The notes under the pieces are model-generated. The model saw only the letters and a program-made list of their open reading frames with translations. It did no database searches and was not told where the DNA came from. A DNA stretch of 26,427 nucleotides from a virus. How positions within the stretch are numbered: position 1 is the stretch's first letter; each line of letters begins with the position of its first letter. Shown in pieces: positions 1 to 8,196 of the stretch. The DNA lies in the IMG/VR virus record IMGVR_UViG_3300046787_000388, positions 1 to 26,427 of that record; one strand, written 5' to 3'. The position numbers were made by a program, and so were the translations under genes.

Positions 1-3
1 GGA

Positions 4-669
4 ATGGACGCTTCTAAATATAATTCTACTTTAGAGTTTTGGATAGAAAAGTGTGGAGGTGATATAGAAGAAGCAAAACGATTATATAAAGATCGCCAAG
101 AAACGTTTAGTAAAAGGAAGTGCGTCGAGAAGCATGGAGACGAAGAAGGATTAAAAGTATGGCAAGAGCGACAGGAAAAGTGGTTAGAAACTTTAGATGC
201 CAAGAGTGATGAAGAGAAATTAGAGATTAATAGATTAAAGGCGAAAGGAATACAAAATAGTGGTCGGTCATATTCAAAAATCTCACAAGAATTATTTGTT
301 AAGATATATGACAAAATTCAAGGAGATTATTTGGTTAGATTTGCTACATTAAGAGGTGATGGAATAGTAAAAGATACAGGGGAAAATAATGAATATATGG
401 TTAATACTTTACAAGGAAATGTACGGTTTTTAGATTTTTATGCGCAAGATTTGGAAGGTAATAAATATAATATTGAATATGATGGGGATTTTTGGCATAA
501 TAACAATAATTACAAAGGAAATGTGGAGAGAGATAGTATTCGCGAGGAGCAAATCATTGAAACGCTTCCAGACATTAAAATTCTCCATATAAAAGAATTC
601 GATTATAAAGCAGATCCTGAAAAAGCGGTTAAAGAATGTTTGGAGTTTTTAAATGCAAGTACTGGATGA
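4..669 (+). CDS. Vsr-like free-standing homing endonuclease in the first terL fracture
   Basis: The 221-residue product is probably a site-specific DNA endonuclease that spreads the split-intein insertion. Residues 138-216 look like the very-short-patch-repair (Vsr)/PD-(D/E)XK type of nuclease: D144 in FLDFY, then E158-x-D160-G-D162-F-W-H165 and R176-D177 form an E-x-D...H...D pattern. Residues 8-62 hold a charged helical section with two related stretches (KDRQETFSKRKC and ERQEKW) of the kind seen in phage homing endonucleases, likely DNA-binding. The gene lies directly before a C-intein, and its 3' end overlaps the middle TerL gene by 17 bases while supplying that gene's ribosome site (GGAG at 642-645). 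The ATG at 4 is the first possible start in the window; the frame is open to base 1, so the true start could lie upstream. The Vsr-like call is by motif only. Confidence 0.78.
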   Translation: MDASKYNSTLEFWIEKCGGDIEEAKRLYKDRQETFSKRKCVEKHGDEEGLKVWQERQEKWLETLDAKSDEEKLEINRLKAKGIQNSGRSYSKISQELFVKIYDKIQGDYLVRFATLRGDGIVKDTGENNEYMVNTLQGNVRFLDFYAQDLEGNKYNIEYDGDFWHNNNNYKGNVERDSIREEQIIETLPDIKILHIKEFDYKADPEKAVKECLEFLNASTG

Positions 670-1006
670 TAAATTTACAGATATAATACATATTCATGAT
701 TATGAGATATGGACAGACAGTGGATGGGAAGAAGTTTCTGCTGTATGTAAAACTATCGAGTATCAAGAATACATATTAACATTAGATGGTTATCGGTTAA
801 TATGTGCAGATGATCATATTGTATTTTGTCAGAATGATGAGGAAAAATGTGTAAAAGATTTAACAGTAGATGATTTCGTACAAACTGAGGAAGGACTAAG
901 AAGAGTTATATCTGTAGAAGTTACAGATTCTTATAGTCAGATGTACGATGTTCAGGTTGATTCTGAAAAACATGCATATTATACAGATGGGATACTTTCG
1001 CATAAT
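653..1006 (+). other. C-terminal half of split intein 1 (P-loop insertion site)
   Basis: These 118 residues contain a block B-like motif (ICADDHIVF, residues 50-58, with the A-x-x-H form of T-x-x-H), block F (MYDVQVDSEKHAYYTDG, 97-113) and block G (ILSHN, 114-118) with the penultimate His and terminal Asn needed for Asn cyclisation. The +1 extein residue is Thr119. No block A is present, so block A must be on a separate upstream polypeptide. The break therefore lies before block B, as in the atypically split TerL inteins. There is no room for an internal endonuclease domain; the endonuclease is the separate gene upstream. Confidence 0.92.
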
Positions 1007-1660
1007 ACAACGACCGCAGGTATATATGCACTATGGAGAGCGTTGTATAGTAATATAAAGATGAATATTTATATTCTCTCAAATAAGGGAGAATCTGCAA
1101 AAGACTTCTTAAATCGTATTAAGGAAGTGTATTCTGATTTAGCGCCACATTTAAAGAGAGGAATTATAGAATGGAATAAAACTTCTATAGTTTTTGAGAA
1201 TGGTACTGCGATACATACTAGTACGACAACACCAGACTCTATTAGAGGACGATCAGTATCTCTTCTTATTCTTGATGAGTTTGCGCACGTAAGACCTGAG
1301 GTGGCAGATCCATTCTGGACATCAGCACAACCTACTGTAGCGTCTGGTACAGCACAGATCCTTATTATCTCTACACCGAATGGACAAACTGGTCAATATT
1401 ATGAATTGTGGAGAGGTGCTGAAATCGGATTGACGGATCCAGAAAAGGGTAATGGATTTAGACCATTTAGAATTGAATGGAATGAACCTCCGGGGCGAGA
1501 TGAAGAGTTTAAGAGAAAGATGATAGCAGAAACATCAAGAAGAATTTTTGCGCAAGAATATGCATGTCTTGGGTCTGATACTTATATAAATATAAAAGAC
1601 AAGTTTACGGGCGAAGTACATCGAGTCCGTATAGGAGATTTGTATGTCAAAGGCGATTAA
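653..1660 (+). CDS. terL: Terminase large subunit, middle piece (C-intein 1 + ATPase extein + N-intein 2)
   Basis: This 335-residue polypeptide is the middle third of a T4 gp17-like packaging motor. Residues 1-118 are the C-terminal part of a split intein ending in SHN. Residues 119-304 are extein beginning TTTAGIYALW, the sequence expected just after the GK of Walker A. The extein carries the Walker B/catalytic carboxylate motif SLLILDEFA (D208, E209) and the coupling motif ISTPNG (about 241-246). Residues 305-335 begin with Cys and form the N-terminal part of a second split intein. The fragment therefore has to be spliced at both ends. The start is fixed by ATG 653 with GGAG 7 bases upstream, inside the preceding endonuclease gene; the end overlaps the next endonuclease gene by 17 bases. 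It is not a degraded gene: the extein is continuous with the following TerL piece and motifs are intact. Confidence 0.93.
   Translation: MQVLDDKFTDIIHIHDYEIWTDSGWEEVSAVCKTIEYQEYILTLDGYRLICADDHIVFCQNDEEKCVKDLTVDDFVQTEEGLRRVISVEVTDSYSQMYDVQVDSEKHAYYTDGILSHNTTTAGIYALWRALYSNIKMNIYILSNKGESAKDFLNRIKEVYSDLAPHLKRGIIEWNKTSIVFENGTAIHTSTTTPDSIRGRSVSLLILDEFAHVRPEVADPFWTSAQPTVASGTAQILIISTPNGQTGQYYELWRGAEIGLTDPEKGNGFRPFRIEWNEPPGRDEEFKRKMIAETSRRIFAQEYACLGSDTYINIKDKFTGEVHRVRIGDLYVKGD
1565..1657 (+). other. N-terminal half of split intein 2 (31 residues)
   Basis: The last 31 residues of the middle TerL piece start with the catalytic Cys1 (CLGSDTYINI) and continue through FTGEVHRVRIGDLY, the usual end of intein block A, then stop. 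The junction EYA/C lies where T4 gp17 passes from the ATPase to the nuclease domain. The very short N-part resembles the roughly 25-residue N-intein of the known AceL-TerL split intein. The partner C-part begins at 2533. Confidence 0.92.
1585..1592 (+). promoter_or_regulatory. Candidate T4-type late promoter inside N-intein 2
   Basis: A perfect TATAAATA lies 51 bases upstream of the HNH endonuclease ATG (1644), within coding sequence. It could give the endonuclease and the last TerL piece their own late transcript. In AT-rich coding DNA an 8-base match can be accidental, so confidence is low. Confidence 0.35.
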
Positions 1661-2552
1661 TGATATATGTAAGATATGCGAGTGTGATGTTCAACATATG
1701 GTATTCCACGTTAAAAAACTACACGGATTAAATTTAAAACAATATTATGATAATTATATTAAGAGCAGTGAAGAGGGAAGCTGTTCTATGTGTGGGAATG
1801 AAGTAGGTTATCAGGGATATTACAAAGGTTATCCTAAATATTGTCGTAAATGTTCTAATAAGAGCGAAGAAAAAAAAATTAAAAGTGCTAAGTCTTGGGA
1901 AAATGTTGATCGCAATCAGCAACAAAAACGACGGGAAGAAACTTGTATGAAAAAATATGGAGTTAGGCATAATTTTTTGACTAAAGAATGTACCGAAAAA
2001 CGATGGGAAACTTTAAATGGTAATAAGGAAGAAATTAATGAAAAACGTAAAAAGTTTTGGAGCGACCCTGATAATGTAGCGAAGGTAGGCGAGACTAGAA
2101 AAAATACTTTTTTAGAGAGATATGGAGTTGAGAATTCGATGCAGTTAGATACTGCATATCAAAATATGAGAAAGACTATGGAGTCTACTGGTAAGTGGGC
2201 GAGTAAAGAAGAAAAATCAGAATTAGAGTGGTACGGTAGACAAGTTAGAAGAATATCATTGAGTCATTATGATGAATTATATAAAAAATGGGATGGTAGA
2301 TGTTACTATACAGGAGAGATATTAGTAAATAATGAACAATATAGGGAAGTTCATGGAGAAGATATAACTTTTAATAGTAATGATAAACAACCTACAGTAG
2401 ATCATAAAATATCTATCAAGTATGGATTTGATAATAATATACCAGAAGAAGTAATAGGAGGGATAGATAACCTATGCATTTGTGGAAAGGGAGTAAATAG
2501 TAAAAAGAATTATTTAACAGAAGAGGAGTTTCGTGAAAAATACCAGATATGA
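1644..2552 (+). CDS. Zinc-finger HNH homing endonuclease in the second terL fracture
   Basis: The 302-residue product has three parts. Residues 9-40 form a Ros/MucR-like C2H2 finger (C9-x2-C12...H22-x4-H27 followed by GLNLKQYYDNY). Residues 47-70 form a four-Cys zinc ribbon (C47-x2-C50, C67-x2-C70). Residues 100-180 repeat a KYGV/RYGVEN motif typical of DNA-binding regions of phage homing endonucleases. The C-terminus (216-290) is an HNH-type nuclease: TVDHKISI (D253, H254), IDNLCIC (N276) and NSKKN (285-289). It belongs to a different nuclease class from the endonuclease at 4-669, although the layout is the same. AGGAG at 1633-1637 sets the ATG. It overlaps the flanking TerL pieces by 17 and 20 bases, which suggests coupled translation. 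Cleavage of the intein-free terL allele is inferred, not shown. Confidence 0.82.
   Translation: MSKAINDICKICECDVQHMVFHVKKLHGLNLKQYYDNYIKSSEEGSCSMCGNEVGYQGYYKGYPKYCRKCSNKSEEKKIKSAKSWENVDRNQQQKRREETCMKKYGVRHNFLTKECTEKRWETLNGNKEEINEKRKKFWSDPDNVAKVGETRKNTFLERYGVENSMQLDTAYQNMRKTMESTGKWASKEEKSELEWYGRQVRRISLSHYDELYKKWDGRCYYTGEILVNNEQYREVHGEDITFNSNDKQPTVDHKISIKYGFDNNIPEEVIGGIDNLCICGKGVNSKKNYLTEEEFREKYQI
2522..2528 (+). promoter_or_regulatory. Ribosome-binding site fixing the GTG start of the last TerL piece
   Basis: AGAGGAG lies 4 bases before the GTG at 2533, inside the 3' end of the HNH gene. It supports independent translation of C-intein 2 plus extein starting at 2533. Confidence 0.7.
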
Positions 2553-2859
2553 AATAGAGACTCCTTATGGGTTTGTAGATTTTGATGGTATTAAGCAACT
2601 ACCAACAAAACAGATGTTACATAGAGTAACTCTTAATAATGGCACGTATTGTGATGTTACCTATAATCATGAATTTGTTGTTAATGGTATATCGGTAAAA
2701 TATAGTTCGTTGAAGAAAGGTGATCAGTTAGAGACGACAGATGGTTTGTTGGAAATACAGTCTTTAATATGTTTAGAAAAAGAAGAGTACGTGTATGATG
2801 TTTTGGAGGTTAAAAATAAGGATCATTCGTTTTATGGTAATGGTATAGTATCTCATAAT
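2533..2859 (+). other. C-terminal half of split intein 2 (109 residues)
   Basis: Block B is seen as DVTYNHEFVV (residues 41-50, with the T-x-N-H tetrad), block F as YVYDVLEVKNKDHSFYGNG (86-104) and block G as IVSHN (105-109) with His108-Asn109. The +1 residue is Cys110. The arrangement (about 30-residue N-part, about 105-residue C-part, extein CDFLG) closely resembles AceL-TerL, including the insertion point SHN/CEFLG as I recall it. Confidence 0.92.
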
Positions 2860-3657
2860 TGCGATTTTTTAGGATCATCATCTACGCTTATAAATGGCGA
2901 GGCATTGGAACGATTATCTCATATGATAAGAGAACCATTTAAGAAGTTTGATAAGTTTGATGTATGGGAAGCGCCTCAACCTAATAAGATATATGCTATA
3001 GGATGTGATGTTGCGATGGGTGTAGGTAGGGATTATAGTGTTATTCAGGTAGTGGATATTACCAATCCTATAAGATTTAAACAAGTTGCGGTATTTGCGG
3101 ATGATTATATTAAGACTTTAGATTTTACATTTAAAATCAATGAAATAGGTAGGATATACAATTATGCATTTTGTATAGTAGAAAATAATACTTATGGTGC
3201 TCAAATATGTCGAGATTTGTGGAATGATTATGAATATGAATGGTTATTTTTTGAGAAAGGCAAGAAAGAGAAGGGGGTAAATGCAAATAGGAAGACGAAA
3301 GTAAATTCAAACGCTGCATTAAAAGAATATATTGAAGAAAATCGTTTAGTTATTAATGATCAGAAAACTTTGAAAGAGTTAGAAGGTTATATTGAGATAA
3401 CTGAGGATAAGTATGGGTGTGAAGGGGAAGAATCTCATGATGACCGAGTAGATGCTTTGAGATGGGTGTGTTATTTTTCAATATCGGATTATTGGCGAGA
3501 TTTGGAAGATTTTATTAGAGAAGAGAGAGGAATAGTTAAGGGTGACTTTGTAGAATTAACTATTGGAAAAGAGGAAATATTTGAACCAGTAATATTTAAT
3601 TCTGGAGATGATATTAATAGAAAAGAGATAGATGAGGATGGTCTAATTTGGGGATAA
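2533..3657 (+). CDS. terL: Terminase large subunit, C-terminal piece (C-intein 2 + nuclease extein)
   Basis: The 374-residue product starts with a 109-residue C-intein and continues as 265 residues of extein beginning CDFLGSSSTLI, which lines up with FEGTSGTLI of T4 gp17. The extein is the RNase H-fold nuclease domain that cuts the DNA concatemer. The metal-binding acidic residues are visible as D159 (IGCDVAMG), E217 (CIVENNTYG) and D303/D304 (SHDDRVDAL). The extein sequence after the P-loop in this and the middle piece totals 451 residues, close to the corresponding part of T4 gp17 as I recall it, so nothing is missing. The start is GTG with AGAGGAG upstream. It must be joined to the middle piece by trans-splicing. 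Confidence 0.93.
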   Translation: MKNTRYEIETPYGFVDFDGIKQLPTKQMLHRVTLNNGTYCDVTYNHEFVVNGISVKYSSLKKGDQLETTDGLLEIQSLICLEKEEYVYDVLEVKNKDHSFYGNGIVSHNCDFLGSSSTLINGEALERLSHMIREPFKKFDKFDVWEAPQPNKIYAIGCDVAMGVGRDYSVIQVVDITNPIRFKQVAVFADDYIKTLDFTFKINEIGRIYNYAFCIVENNTYGAQICRDLWNDYEYEWLFFEKGKKEKGVNANRKTKVNSNAALKEYIEENRLVINDQKTLKELEGYIEITEDKYGCEGEESHDDRVDALRWVCYFSISDYWRDLEDFIREERGIVKGDFVELTIGKEEIFEPVIFNSGDDINRKEIDEDGLIWG

Positions 3658-3677
3658 ATAAGTGATGAAATAATTTT

Positions 3678-3685
3678 TATAAATA
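3678..3685 (+). promoter_or_regulatory. T4-type late promoter for the tail sheath gene
   Basis: A perfect TATAAATA in the 67-base gap between the last TerL piece and the sheath gene. The predicted RNA start near 3691 gives a leader of about 34 bases containing AGGAGAT (3714-3720) before the ATG at 3725. Confidence 0.75.
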
Positions 3686-3724
3686 CAGTTAACATATAAT
3701 ATTGTACCAGAATAGGAGATAAAA

Positions 3725-5608
3725 ATGGCAAATTCCGCACCTTCAGTAGAAATTTTCAATAGATCTTTTACTCAAACGGTTGAACCTACGTCTGATGTTG
3801 TATTCGGAACGTTAGGTTTATTCTCTAGAGGACCTGTGAATGAACTTACTTTGGTAAGTAATAATGCAGAGTTGCGGGACATTTTTGGAACTCCTGTAGA
3901 TTCATTGACTGCTAAATTCTTTTTTCCTATCGATCAAATATTAGAAATTGCTCCTGTATATGTTATTCGTGTAGAAGAAAGTGAAAAGAAATGTGCAGGA
4001 TCTACTGTTGGAATAAGCGGTGTAAATACTGTAGCGCTTGATACTCCTGTAGAAGTTTCCGCATATCCTTTGTCATATTCTTCTGTATTTGAAACAGGAG
4101 AAGATTCTAATATCGAAATTGATCCTGATGCTTTGGGTATAACTAATACCATTTCTGTTATTGCTACAGGACCGGGTGAATCGTATGAAAATGTTGGTTA
4201 TTCTATTGTTAATTATGATGACTATAAAAAATTGTTAACATTAGCATCTGATCTTGCTAGTTCTGATACCGATGCTGAACTTGTTACGGTTGGTACACTT
4301 GCTTATAATGAGTCTATTTCTGGAACTGGTATTAGTCAATCGTTGATTACAGATCTTATCGATCCTGATCATAGTTATTCGGTAGATAGTAGCTTGCTTA
4401 ATAAGTATTTGTCTTTTGAGTTCGGTCCCGCATCTTCAACTCAATTTGCGTTTTATGAATATGACGGCTCGTCTCTTGTAAATGCTTATGTGGTATCTAC
4501 TGATCCTAATGAAAAAGATGCTAGAGGAATAACTTTGTTTGCTAATAATGTTATAAATGATACTTCTACGAATTTAAAAGTATTTGTTGGGACTAGCAAA
4601 TTGACTGCAAATGCCGTTTCAGTACCTTCTATCCCAAAAACTACTTTGGGCGGAGCAGATGCTCTAACTACAACTGAATCGGAGGCGATAGGTGATTCTA
4701 TGATAGAACAACTTATTTTAAATTTCTCTTCTCGCGAAGAATTGCCAAATTTAACAGCTTTCGTAGATCTTGATTTTTCGCTTGGTGTAAAACAACGCAT
4801 GAATTCTATAGCAGAGTCTAGACAAGATACTGTAGGATTGCTCAATCATCCTGCAAGTACTATGATTGATGTTAATAGCGGTAAGAAGAAGGCAAATCAG
4901 ACTAAGTTAGTTAAAGATTATGTAGATAATACATTGGGAATTAATTCTTCTTTTTCTGCTATCTACTCTCAATATTTTGAAGTACGAGATATCTATAATG
5001 ATCAGTATGTTTGGGTTCCTGTTACAGGCCATGTGGCAAACAGAATGGCATTTACTATAGAGAATTATTCTCCATGGTATGCTATCGCTGGATTTGAGCG
5101 TGGAGTAATTACAGGAGATGTTCATAAGGTTGCATATAATCCTACAGAAGATCAGCGTAAAGTTATCTATCCTGCGAGAATTAATCCTATTGTTAATTTC
5201 CGTGGAGAAGGTATTGTGATTTTTGGACAGAAAACTCTTCAAAGTTTCTCTTCAAACACTGACCGTCTTGATATAAGAATGCTTCTTATTGCTATCAACA
5301 AAGTTGTTCGTAGAGTAAGTCGTCAGACTCTTTTCGCAAAGAATACCTCTACTACAAGAAATCTTTGGAGAAATGCGATTAATAGTTACTTAAATACTGT
5401 AGTTGCTAATGAAGGTATTTCTGAGTATCAAGTAATTGCTGATGAGTCTAACAATCCTCCTGAGGTAGTAGCAAATAAAGAATTCTATGGTTTTATTGCT
5501 GTAAGGCCAGTAAACTCTATAGAGTTTATCAAGATTTATGTCGCTGATGTGGGCGGTCAATTGACAATTACTGAAGCTCTTGATGCACTTCGTGGCGCAA
5601 ATCTCTAA
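3725..5608 (+). CDS. gp18: Tail sheath protein (gp18-like)
   Basis: The 627-residue product is the contractile sheath subunit that polymerises around the tail tube and drives DNA injection. The N-terminus (PSVEIFNRSFTQTVE, then FGTLGLFSRGPVNEL) has the usual sheath opening. The C-terminal domain (about 440-627) is the diagnostic part: GEGIVIFGQKTL near 490, then DIRMLLIAINKVVRR, an NTSTTRNLWRNAINSYL helix, and FYGFIAVRPVNSIEFIKIYV near the end. This is the conserved core that forms the interlocking beta-sheet with neighbouring subunits. Residues about 130-360 are a variable surface insertion rich in Ser/Thr/Asp. A strong AGGAGAT lies 4 bases before the ATG and a late promoter lies upstream. 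Position between terL and the tube genes follows T4 gene order (17-18-19). Confidence 0.92.
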   Translation: MANSAPSVEIFNRSFTQTVEPTSDVVFGTLGLFSRGPVNELTLVSNNAELRDIFGTPVDSLTAKFFFPIDQILEIAPVYVIRVEESEKKCAGSTVGISGVNTVALDTPVEVSAYPLSYSSVFETGEDSNIEIDPDALGITNTISVIATGPGESYENVGYSIVNYDDYKKLLTLASDLASSDTDAELVTVGTLAYNESISGTGISQSLITDLIDPDHSYSVDSSLLNKYLSFEFGPASSTQFAFYEYDGSSLVNAYVVSTDPNEKDARGITLFANNVINDTSTNLKVFVGTSKLTANAVSVPSIPKTTLGGADALTTTESEAIGDSMIEQLILNFSSREELPNLTAFVDLDFSLGVKQRMNSIAESRQDTVGLLNHPASTMIDVNSGKKKANQTKLVKDYVDNTLGINSSFSAIYSQYFEVRDIYNDQYVWVPVTGHVANRMAFTIENYSPWYAIAGFERGVITGDVHKVAYNPTEDQRKVIYPARINPIVNFRGEGIVIFGQKTLQSFSSNTDRLDIRMLLIAINKVVRRVSRQTLFAKNTSTTRNLWRNAINSYLNTVVANEGISEYQVIADESNNPPEVVANKEFYGFIAVRPVNSIEFIKIYVADVGGQLTITEALDALRGANL

Positions 5609-5619
5609 TCGATATATCA

Positions 5620-5627
5620 TATAAATA
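5620..5627 (+). promoter_or_regulatory. T4-type late promoter for the first tail tube gene
   Basis: A perfect TATAAATA in the 37-base gap after the sheath gene. The RNA start near 5633 would leave a 13-base leader that is almost entirely the strong ribosome site AAAGGAGA (5633-5640). Confidence 0.78.
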
Positions 5628-5645
5628 CAAATAAAGGAGACTAAA

Positions 5646-6188
5646 ATGAGTTGGAATTTAAATAACTTTCGAACAAATGTCAAGGCAATTGCTCTAAATC
5701 AGTATTTTATGATTGAGATCCCAGAGGTTGGAGACGTTCAAAAAATTACGGCTTTAGCCCGTACTACTGATTTGCCCGCAATGGTGCATGAAACTACTGG
5801 CGTTCCTTATAGAGGACTCGACATGAAGATTCAGACTAAGGTAACGTTTAGTGATTGGAATGTAACCTTTTTGTGTGAACAAGATCATGATCTAAGGACG
5901 AAGATGTTGACATGGCAAGCTAAGATGTATAAGTTAGATTCCGCTGCGAATAGACCACATGATGAGTATAAAGTTGATAATGTATCGGTGTCAAAGGTGG
6001 GGTATGATGGCGCGGTTATCCCTAAGACTACATGTAAATTTTTCGGGTTGTTTCCTTCTTCTGTAGGTCCGGTATCTTTGGATCAAGCTGGTGGTACTCC
6101 TGATACTTTTGATGTTACATTTACTTATGATTATTTTGTTCCTGCTGACGGATCTATTGCTGAATGGAGTGGTGGAGCTTCTTCTTAA
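5646..6188 (+). CDS. gp19: Tail tube protein, paralog 1 (gp19-like)
   Basis: The 180-residue product is the likely main tube subunit forming the inner DNA channel. It shows the gp19-type pattern: NQYFMIEIPEV near the N-terminus, a central VTFSDWNVTFLCEQDHDLRTKM segment (about 75-100), and FFGLFPSSVGPVSLDQAGG followed by FDVTFTYDYF (about 133-165). Residues 1-20 (SWNLNNFRTNVKAIALNQYF) are nearly repeated in the next gene. It has the best ribosome site of the three tube genes and its own late promoter, so it is the most likely abundant subunit; the remaining two may be minor tube, completion or variant subunits. Confidence 0.88.
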   Translation: MSWNLNNFRTNVKAIALNQYFMIEIPEVGDVQKITALARTTDLPAMVHETTGVPYRGLDMKIQTKVTFSDWNVTFLCEQDHDLRTKMLTWQAKMYKLDSAANRPHDEYKVDNVSVSKVGYDGAVIPKTTCKFFGLFPSSVGPVSLDQAGGTPDTFDVTFTYDYFVPADGSIAEWSGGASS

Positions 6189-6216
6189 TTCTGATTTAAG
6201 GATTAATGAAAACTAA

Positions 6217-6726
6217 ATGGCATGGAATTTAGCAAATTTCAGAGAGAACATAAAATCTATAGGATTAAATCAATACTTTGAAATTAATTTTGATGGCGTT
6301 GAGCATCTTAATGGATTTGATAGTGATCAGTTGACGGCTCTTTGTCGAACTACTGAACTTCCTGCAAAAGTATTAGAGACTCAGAATGTAGCGTATTATG
6401 GCGCTGATTATAAAATAGCGTCTAGAGCGACATTTAATGATTGGACGGTTACTTTTTTAGATGCTATTTTGCTTAGATCTAGTTTTGTAACATGGTGTGA
6501 TAAAGTATATGATATATCTAAATTGAAGATAGAAAATGATCATACAAAGTACAAAACTGATTCAGTTACTGTAAAAAAAACGTCAATTGAAAAAGAGGCG
6601 TCTACTATAAAATTTTACGGATTATTTCCTTCTTCTGTAGGACCAGTGAATTTTGATCAAAGTGGCGGGACTCCTACAACGTTTGATGTTACGTTTTCTT
6701 ATGATTTTTTTGTGACCGAAAAATAG
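6217..6726 (+). CDS. Tail tube protein, paralog 2 (gp19-like)
   Basis: The 169-residue product is a clear paralog of the preceding protein: AWNLANFRENIKSIGLNQYF at the N-terminus, RTTELPAKVLET, a TFNDWTVTFLDA segment, and FYGLFPSSVGPVNFDQSGGTP near the C-terminus match one by one. The start at 6217 is fixed by this alignment. The ribosome site is weak (AAGG near 6199-6202, about 14 bases from ATG), and no late promoter is seen in the 28-base gap, so it is probably translated from the upstream transcript at a lower level. It may form a specialised tube ring or alternate with paralog 1. Confidence 0.85.
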   Translation: MAWNLANFRENIKSIGLNQYFEINFDGVEHLNGFDSDQLTALCRTTELPAKVLETQNVAYYGADYKIASRATFNDWTVTFLDAILLRSSFVTWCDKVYDISKLKIENDHTKYKTDSVTVKKTSIEKEASTIKFYGLFPSSVGPVNFDQSGGTPTTFDVTFSYDFFVTEK

Positions 6727-6745
6727 TATTGTTTAAAATTCGGCA

Positions 6746-6768
6746 ACCTCTATAAATACTGATGAGGT
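6746..6768 (+). promoter_or_regulatory. Late promoter enclosed in a ribosome-site-sequestering hairpin (third tube gene)
   Basis: TATAAATA occupies 6751-6758. It forms the start of a 13-base loop between ACCTC (6746-6750) and GAGGT (6764-6768), a perfect 5-bp inverted repeat. The 3' arm is the Shine-Dalgarno sequence of the GTG start at 6775. RNA read through from upstream could pair and hide this site; RNA starting at the late promoter (near 6764) would lack the 5' arm. Confidence 0.55.
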
Positions 6769-6774
6769 ATAATT

Positions 6775-7341
6775 GTGGCGGATACGCAAAAAGGGTTTGA
6801 GTTACTTAAGTTCGGTGAAAGAACTAAGGATGGATTTGCACGAGCATATCAGTTTGCGATTAATATTAGGTCCCCCAACGATAAAAAAGGCGATGAAGAA
6901 TATTATACGACATATTGCGAGTCGATGACATTACCTCAGAGAATGTATGATACTAAAGAACTTGAGTTTTCATACGGAAAACCTAGTATAAAAATTGCAA
7001 CACAGGTTAGATTTAATAATTGGTCGGTGACTTTTAGGGATATACCGGGGTTACAACTGCGCACGGATATGCTAGAGTGGCAAGAGCTTATTGTTAATAC
7101 GACAAAAGGAAAAATGATGTATAATACCCCTAAAGATTATAAATCTAATGACTCTACAGCAAAAATAAAATTATCTCCTAGTGGAGGCGGTGATGAGAAA
7201 AGTTTAGGTATGGCTATATATAGATTTTATGGATTATATCCAGCCGATGTTAGTTCTATTACATTTTCCCATTCTGATCAAAGTTTAGTGACATTTTCGG
7301 TAGATTTTGCGTATGATTTTTTTACAGTAGATCAACAATAA
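6775..7341 (+). CDS. Tail tube protein, paralog 3 (divergent gp19-like)
   Basis: The 188-residue product is more distant from the first two but keeps the fold markers: ESMTLPQRMYDTKEL, VRFNNWSVTFRDI (about 80-92), LRTDMLEWQELI, and a C-terminal FYGLYPADVSSITFSHSDQ...FSVDFAYDFF. The start is GTG 6775 with GAGG 8 bases upstream; TTG 6773 is out of frame. It has its own late promoter. It lacks the SSVGPV motif of the other two, so it may be a tube-terminator, completion or tail-tip subunit instead of a shaft subunit. Confidence 0.78.
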   Translation: MADTQKGFELLKFGERTKDGFARAYQFAINIRSPNDKKGDEEYYTTYCESMTLPQRMYDTKELEFSYGKPSIKIATQVRFNNWSVTFRDIPGLQLRTDMLEWQELIVNTTKGKMMYNTPKDYKSNDSTAKIKLSPSGGGDEKSLGMAIYRFYGLYPADVSSITFSHSDQSLVTFSVDFAYDFFTVDQQ

Positions 7342-7350
7342 GGAGTATAT

Positions 7351-8196
7351 ATGAGTAATGAGTTATTGAAGCAGTTTCAGGCGATGTCGAGAGATGTGCC
7401 AGATTCTAAATTTACATTGCCCGGATCGGGGGAAGATATTTATTTTGTACCATTTACAACGAAGGATCAAAAAGCGTTGTTAAAGAGTATGGAAAAGGAG
7501 GATTTTGATTTAATACAAGAAGCATTTGATAATGTATTAAAAAAGTGCGTGACGAATGCTAATTTTGACCCAAAGAATCTTTATCCAAAGGATAGAGAAT
7601 CGCTTTTAATTGCATTAAGAAAAGAATCTGTAAATGATCAATTTACACATTATTGGAAATGTGAAAATGAGGTATCTAAAGTTAATGAGAATGGAGAAGA
7701 GATAAAAGACGAAAACGGAGAAAAAGTTAAAGAGACTTGTGGTGGTGAAAACAAGAAAGTTATCTCTTTAAATGAGTTGGAAATGAAGTCTTTGCAAAAA
7801 ATGGATTTTAATAAAGAAGTAGCATTGGAGGATAAAAGTAATTGTTTTCTTTTGTTAGATATGACAAAGAGAAAAGATGAGTTAGCTGTTATGAAGTATA
7901 CAAAAAAGAATTCTGGAGGAATAAAGGGATTGAGTAGAACAGAACTTTTATATGCAACATTAGCGTCATTTATTTCTGGATTGCGGATAGGTGATCAAGA
8001 AACCAAAGATTTGACTTTGGAAGATCGTATTACTATCATAGATGGATTAACATTAAAAGACCGTAGAAAGATTGAAGATTATATTACATCATTGGAAAGT
8101 CATGGATATGATTTAACAATAAAAGAATGTAAATGTTCTAAGTGTGGACATGAAGATGAACAAAAATTAGAGTGGATCTATTTTTTCGCCGTGTAA
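7351..8196 (+). CDS. gp26-like tail/baseplate assembly protein; likely frameshifting tail chaperone (short form)
   Basis: The 281-residue product lies between the tube genes and the tape measure gene, the position of the tail assembly chaperone in many tailed phages. Residues 20-50 (FTLPGSGEDIYFVPFTTKDQ) resemble the opening of the T4 gp26-type baseplate hub family. Potential metal ligands are C103 with C129 (YWKCEN...ETCGG) and a C-terminal C-x-C-x2-CG cluster (CKCSKCG). The start is fixed by TAAGGAG overlapping the previous stop. Three codons before the TAA lies T TTT TTC (8181-8187), which would allow -1 frameshifting into the next reading frame and give a 355-residue product. gp26 hub subunit and lambda G-like chaperone are both possible; position and slippery site favour a chaperone role. 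Confidence 0.62.
   Translation: MSNELLKQFQAMSRDVPDSKFTLPGSGEDIYFVPFTTKDQKALLKSMEKEDFDLIQEAFDNVLKKCVTNANFDPKNLYPKDRESLLIALRKESVNDQFTHYWKCENEVSKVNENGEEIKDENGEKVKETCGGENKKVISLNELEMKSLQKMDFNKEVALEDKSNCFLLLDMTKRKDELAVMKYTKKNSGGIKGLSRTELLYATLASFISGLRIGDQETKDLTLEDRITIIDGLTLKDRRKIEDYITSLESHGYDLTIKECKCSKCGHEDEQKLEWIYFFAV
8181..8187 (+). promoter_or_regulatory. Candidate programmed -1 frameshift site
   Basis: In the zero frame the codons are TAT TTT TTC GCC GTG TAA, so T TTT TTC is a perfect X XXY YYZ heptamer with the correct phase. After a -1 slip the ribosome reads TTT TTT CGC CGT and continues to 8417. The heptamer is 6 bases before the stop codon. No strong downstream hairpin is obvious; only a 4-bp ATAC/GTAT stem at 8206-8216 was seen. 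Confidence 0.6.

Follow-up and report, generated by a model that had tools for sequence, protein, structure and literature searches.

An atypically split TerL intein with a 31-residue N-part and an HNH-type nuclease gene in its break, encoded by a T4-like phage contig

At the left end of IMG/VR record IMGVR_UViG_3300046787_000388 lies a T4-like terL, the large terminase gene of the DNA-packaging motor; genes for the tail sheath and the tail tube come after it. The whole 26.4-kb record (positions 1 to 26,427), referred to here as the window, was analyzed. This terL is broken into separate genes, and their protein pieces are predicted to be rejoined by inteins, which are self-splicing elements. 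One of them (intein 2) had been described in an earlier note as an AceL-TerL-like, atypically split intein.

Three ORFs, all on the plus strand like every other feature of the window described below, occupy positions 653-1660, 1644-2552 and 2533-3657. Neighboring ORFs share 17 and 20 bases, respectively, and upstream of each internal start (1644 and 2533) there is an AGGAG. The first ORF encodes the C-part of intein 1, the middle TerL segment with the ATPase domain (1007-1564; Terminase_6N at residues 119-305, E = 6.7e-13) ending in QEYA, and the 31 residues CLGSDTYINIKDKFTGEVHRVRIGDLYVKGD, which form the N-part of intein 2 with Cys1 and block A (1565-1657; stop codon TAA at 1658-1660). The middle segment is at once the C-extein of intein 1 and the N-extein of intein 2. 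The second ORF, HEN2 (1644-2552), is intact and codes for a free-standing, 302-residue HNH-type homing-endonuclease-like protein, overlapping both halves of intein 2. The third begins with GTG and encodes the 109-residue C-part of intein 2 (2533-2859), which ends in SHN, and then the C-extein, C(+1)DFLGSSS and the TerL nuclease domain (2860-3657; Terminase_6C, E = 2.1e-8), for which an uninterrupted relative exists. The AGGAG at 1633-1637, within the N-part coding sequence, is the putative ribosome-binding site of HEN2; that at 2524-2528, within the end of HEN2, would serve the C-part gene.

Intein 2 interrupts TerL at EYA-C…HN-CDFLGSSS (hyphens mark the junctions), with the Cys1 codon at 1565-1567 and the +1 Cys codon at 2860-2862. 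The part lengths and coordinates given in the earlier note are exact, and its assignment of Cys1 and Cys+1 is right. Alignment across block A, whose absence the note had regarded as fatal to its proposal, is present. Scored with a profile built on the N-parts of other contigs, the N-part of intein 2 reaches 43.8 bits, compared with 16.2 bits for the best of 5000 composition-preserving shuffles, and in a six-frame scan of the window with such a profile the N-part ORF is the sole significant match (E = 8.5e-11; the next has 0.24). The 73 N-parts behind the profile (before duplicate removal) had been picked by their place after the TerL extein and not by likeness to the window. The C-part contains block B (T43xxH46), block F (YDV, D89) and block G (NGIVSHN-C). 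When the joined 140-residue intein with the +1 Cys was searched against PDB, it matched CatC (6DSL, E = 1.4e-9) and VidaL (2e-4). The 31-residue N-part alone, too short a query, had no PDB match, and the AceL-like N-part of another IMG/VR locus (L054) gave only chance-level PDB matches.

The structure of the C-part, predicted with a 28-sequence alignment (window and IMG/VR), is a HINT fold (pLDDT 96.6). Residues 1-109 of the model superpose on residues 33-134 of Cat (Z = 14.1, 1.6 A over 101 residues). In structural alignments the model also corresponds to residues 32-141 of VidaL, its top Foldseek match, and to residues 19-125 of gp41-1. Since the first residue of the C-part corresponds to Cat residue 33, the break lies after helix 1. 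A split at this place is named S2, and AceL-TerL and GOS-TerL have been assigned to it (PMC13014065). The view that this is a TerL intein split before block B, at the AceL-TerL-type position, thus stands. Contiguous natural mini-inteins from the same site (L019, L015 and L124) align across both parts of intein 2 (Z = 13.9-19.8 against shuffles), which fits a break in a mini-intein loop; these natural relatives were used because a joined N+C chain does not occur in the window. Intein 2 shows the sequence and fold traits of this type: a TerL site of the form QE(Y/F)x-CxF(L/Q)G(S/T), judged against the junctions of an intein-free relative (L011) and of at least 120 IMG/VR loci, an IntN of about 24-40 residues with block A only, an IntC with blocks B, F and G, a HINT fold and an HN end, and the class 1 nucleophiles Cys1 and Cys+1. 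At the level of sequence and structural models, intein 2 is confirmed as a real atypically split TerL intein of the AceL-TerL type.

The corresponding empty site is seen in another IMG/VR locus (L011). The TerL encoded there is uninterrupted, shares 72% identity with that of the window in the last segment, and reads RQTGKTTTAGIYALW and QEYNCSFLGSSSTLING. At the intein 2 junction, QEYN-CSFLGSSSTLING in this locus compares with QEYA-[intein]-CDFLGSSSTLING in the window, and each of the two window inteins is inserted precisely between two residues of the uninterrupted protein. No close relative carrying intein 2 was found.

We consider it highly likely that intein 2 is a naturally split class 1 (Cys1/Cys+1) TerL intein with an S2 break in a fractured gene, from which trans-splicing and homing by the nuclease can be inferred. 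The middle TerL polypeptide would end in the 31-residue IntN, and the last one would start with the 109-residue IntC, which supplies the larger part of the HINT fold. During infection, docking of IntN on IntC would complete this fold. Splicing would then join the ATPase to the nuclease domain through an N-S acyl shift at Cys1 and transthioesterification to Cys+1, after which the terminal Asn of the intein (C-part residue N109) would cyclise and an S-N shift would leave QEYACDFLGSSS. HEN2, whose coding sequence overlaps those of both halves, probably cleaves the intein-free site in terL, whereupon the whole N-part/HEN/C-part cassette may be copied into it.

Could intein 2 instead be a degenerate, non-splicing remnant? 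Its halves would then show little or no association, with TerL working as separate, non-covalently held ATPase and nuclease domains. The break does lie between these two domains, where a two-chain enzyme is conceivable. However, no splicing residue of block A, B, F or G has been lost, nor has the +1 Cys; neither ORF is disrupted, and the C-part is modeled with confidence as a HINT fold. A dead intein would also burden an essential motor protein with 31 plus 109 superfluous residues, and related TerL inteins of the same split type are reported to splice (PMC11766414). We therefore regard a remnant as quite improbable. Still harder to believe is that a contiguous intein with a nested endonuclease was frameshifted by an assembly or sequencing artefact: the window is a single metagenomic contig, and frameshifts could in principle give overlapping ORFs, but dozens of independent contigs, as well as sequenced isolates, share this stop-and-restart layout at the same position, and the spacing of AGGAG before the starts agrees with real genes. 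Splicing of the transcript, for instance by a group I intron, is known for phage ICP1 terL (PMC10448857) and would agree with a HEN gene in the break, as in introns, but it is extremely unlikely here, since the flanks encode intein blocks in frame with both exteins, a stop codon follows the N-part and a ribosome-binding-site-like sequence precedes the C-part start; a group I intron was dismissed, as the Rfam scan of the window matched no intron or other RNA family.

We also asked how common such a break is. The degenerate pattern HN-CxFxG(S/T)xxTLI occurs at no fewer than 120 IMG/VR loci, which are a sample. Among the matches listed, the N-extein is on the same contig in 84. Usable N-parts of 24-56 residues (median 30) were obtained from 73 of these 84 contigs, while in six the intein is contiguous at this TerL site. 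The same break is present in the cultivated phages PX29 (gene 17), Providencia PSTRCR_127, Serratia 92A1 and Vibrio EniLVp02 and Va1, laid out as two or three genes, with an IntN of 32-37 residues and with or without an endonuclease: GIY-YIG in PX29, PSTRCR_127 and 92A1, Vsr-like and fused to IntC in Va1, and none in EniLVp02. These phages, unlike the window, have no intein at Walker A. The break is thus usual at this TerL site and not rare, as the earlier note had supposed. Moreover, the PX29 depositors had annotated a 'putative N-intein' and a 'putative GIY-YIG endonuclease and C-intein'. Intein 2 is a new, divergent member of a known split type.

The first residue of the 73 N-parts among the matches listed is Cys in 59 and Ser in 14. 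The latter, many of them in one clade, are Ser1/Cys+1 TerL split inteins (L039, L041, L048, L069, L072, L082, L087, L090, L099, L102, L106, L117, L121 and L122), a combination for which GOS-TerL was described in 2023 as the sole known case (PMC10189870). Among the matches listed, the Vsr-like gap ORFs from IMG/VR, seven in number, are without exception paired with Ser1 inteins. In a further contig (L095) an intein-free junction (QEFD-CEFLGS) comes first, and then a C-part with another CEFLGS segment; a chimeric assembly or a partial duplication would explain this layout.

The nuclease in the break is where the window departs from most of its relatives. HEN2 consists of a cysteine-pair N-terminal region, DUF7487-like repeats and an HNH region with D253 and H254 at 2400-2405. 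The residues of its DH...N...N motif (D253, H254, N276 and N285) are invariant in six relatives. PHROG matches were to homing endonuclease (5.8e-10) and endonuclease VII (1.8e-7); for Pfam DUF7487, HEN2 itself is under the cut-off and two relatives (L057 and L136) are over it. In Foldseek, its C-terminal domain matched weakly the Cas9 HNH domain and the Gme HNH nickase (E = 0.01-0.1, probability up to 0.99). The conserved motif and the modeled beta-beta-alpha-metal fold point to an HNH homing-endonuclease-like protein related to DUF7487 and EndoVII. HEN2 lies between two half-genes, the arrangement of a fractured gene, and homologs are likewise placed in the TerL break of L133, L134, L057 and L135, in the last fused to IntC. 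Others (L138 and L142) are free-standing near tail genes, and there are few relatives among annotated phages.

By sequence, the gap ORFs among the matches listed and in the cultivated phages fall into three groups. The GIY-YIG/NUMOD group numbers 58 (three from cultivated phages), the Vsr/DUF559/MTES_1575-like group ten (eight in this break plus the HEN1 proteins of the window and L134), and the HNH group seven (HEN2 of the window, L057, L133, L134, L135, L136 and L138). The HNH class is thus rare in this break and GIY-YIG is the norm. In about a dozen contigs among the matches listed the break lacks a separate nuclease ORF, which indicates that the split can outlive its nuclease. The sample indicates that a TerL broken at this place is the norm among environmental T4-like phages, with several nuclease families in the break. 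The gap ORF of one contig (L023) joins the GIY-YIG/NUMOD group through the shared C-terminal region and has an HNH_3 domain instead; from its sequence, this looks like a swap of the catalytic domain on a shared tail.

How close is intein 2 to AceL-TerL itself? Host gene, S2 split, Cys+1 and environmental phage origin are shared with AceL-TerL, GOS-TerL and Cat (PDB 6DSL), the last being an engineered consensus of TerL inteins derived from AceL-TerL and GOS-TerL. The IntN of 31 residues compares with the known 25-37 residues of these inteins, and IntC has about 104-109 residues. In GOS-TerL the first residue is Ser, whereas it is Cys in the window. CatC is the best PDB sequence match, yet the window is only ~34% identical to it over aligned residues. 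The contigs nearest Cat, in contrast, have 84-89% identity to CatC, and their gap ORFs are of the GIY-YIG/NUMOD type, unlike the HNH-type nuclease of the window. In a tree of 76 C-parts, which is weakly resolved owing to its 112 columns, the window groups with the HNH-bearing L057, L133, L134 and L135 and with the inteins of the Vibrio, Providencia and Serratia phages (support 90/91), whereas CatC is in another group (96/98). Forcing the window into the Cat group cost 37 log-likelihood units (p-AU = 0.061, with few columns, short of formal rejection by the AU test), and a single clade for all HNH-bearing inteins gave p-AU = 0.286. Intein 2 is thus probably outside the AceL/Cat sub-lineage but within the same TerL-site family. 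"AceL-TerL-like" remains apt for the split type and the TerL site; by sequence, intein 2 groups apart from AceL/Cat.

The earlier note had also likened intein 2 to fast-splicing TerL inteins. Natural AceL-TerL is reported to be of low affinity, with an optimum at 8 degrees and a rate there of 1.7e-3 per second, and it is the engineered Cat that is fast (PMC11766414); the label should consequently not carry over. VidaL and PolB16 share the very short IntN with the window but differ in having an S1 split, after strand 2, with an IntN of 15-16 residues (PMC13014065, PMC10189870). PolB16 also differs in its host gene and nucleophiles (Ser1/Ser+1, compared with TerL and Cys1/Cys+1). Intein 2 would add a divergent Cys1/Cys+1 member to the few short-IntN split inteins that have been characterized, a set of value in protein semisynthesis.

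Intein 2 is accompanied in the same gene by intein 1, which splits Walker A (GK-TTTAGIY), with its +1 Thr at 1007. Its C-part (653-1006; 118 residues ending in SHN) matches Intein_splicing and TIGR01443, and the empty site in L011 reads RQTGKTTTAGIYAL. It is preceded by HEN1, a Vsr/MTES_1575-like homing-endonuclease ORF (4-669, 221 residues) open to the left end of the contig, beyond which the N-part of intein 1 would lie. HEN1 matches MTES_1575 with E = 0.0022, under Pfam's cut-off, and clusters with the Vsr-like gap ORFs. In two other IMG/VR contigs, L133 and L134, the N-part at the Walker A site has 35 residues and ends in a stop codon, so that the intein there is atypically split. By analogy, the N-part of intein 1 is predicted to have about 35 residues, and the TerL of the window is probably fractured twice and made as three polypeptides. 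A start inside the intein C-part also occurs in other contigs, such as L057, L106 and L115. L133 and L134 resemble the window in having split inteins at the Walker A and EYxC sites and, in the second break, a nuclease of the HNH family seen in the window, although their HEN2 proteins are only about 39-43% identical to that of the window. A Vsr-like HEN1 occupies the first break of L134 as well, whereas L133 lacks HEN1. The C-part of L133 (4971-5306) ends in NKN-C, the penultimate His being replaced by Lys, compared with HN-C in the window. Unlike the window, L134 contains a third, contiguous mini-intein near Walker B (SIN-C...SN-CLFLDE).

The uncommon HNH class in the break and the probable presence of two atypically split inteins in one gene are the most interesting aspects of the locus. 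A broader proposal, which we put forward tentatively and hold at somewhat less than even, is that one packaging motor is assembled from three polypeptides by two non-cross-reacting atypically split inteins, and that nucleases of no fewer than three unrelated families (GIY-YIG, Vsr-like and HNH) have invaded the S2 break. If so, the S2 break would be a stable, nuclease-exchanging homing site and not something left behind by the history of a single endonuclease. Two inteins paired within a single TerL would also offer a natural orthogonality test for atypical split inteins. The region of the Walker A split intein is 4-1006 in the window and 2467-3886 in L133, and it reaches up to 3864 in L134; the last contig has three inteins in TerL within 1-7483, and the gap at its EYA-C site holds two extra ORFs. 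A comparable arrangement was observed outside TerL in L012 (2814-6924), where an intein fractures a family B DNA polymerase and a Vsr-like ORF lies between the halves.
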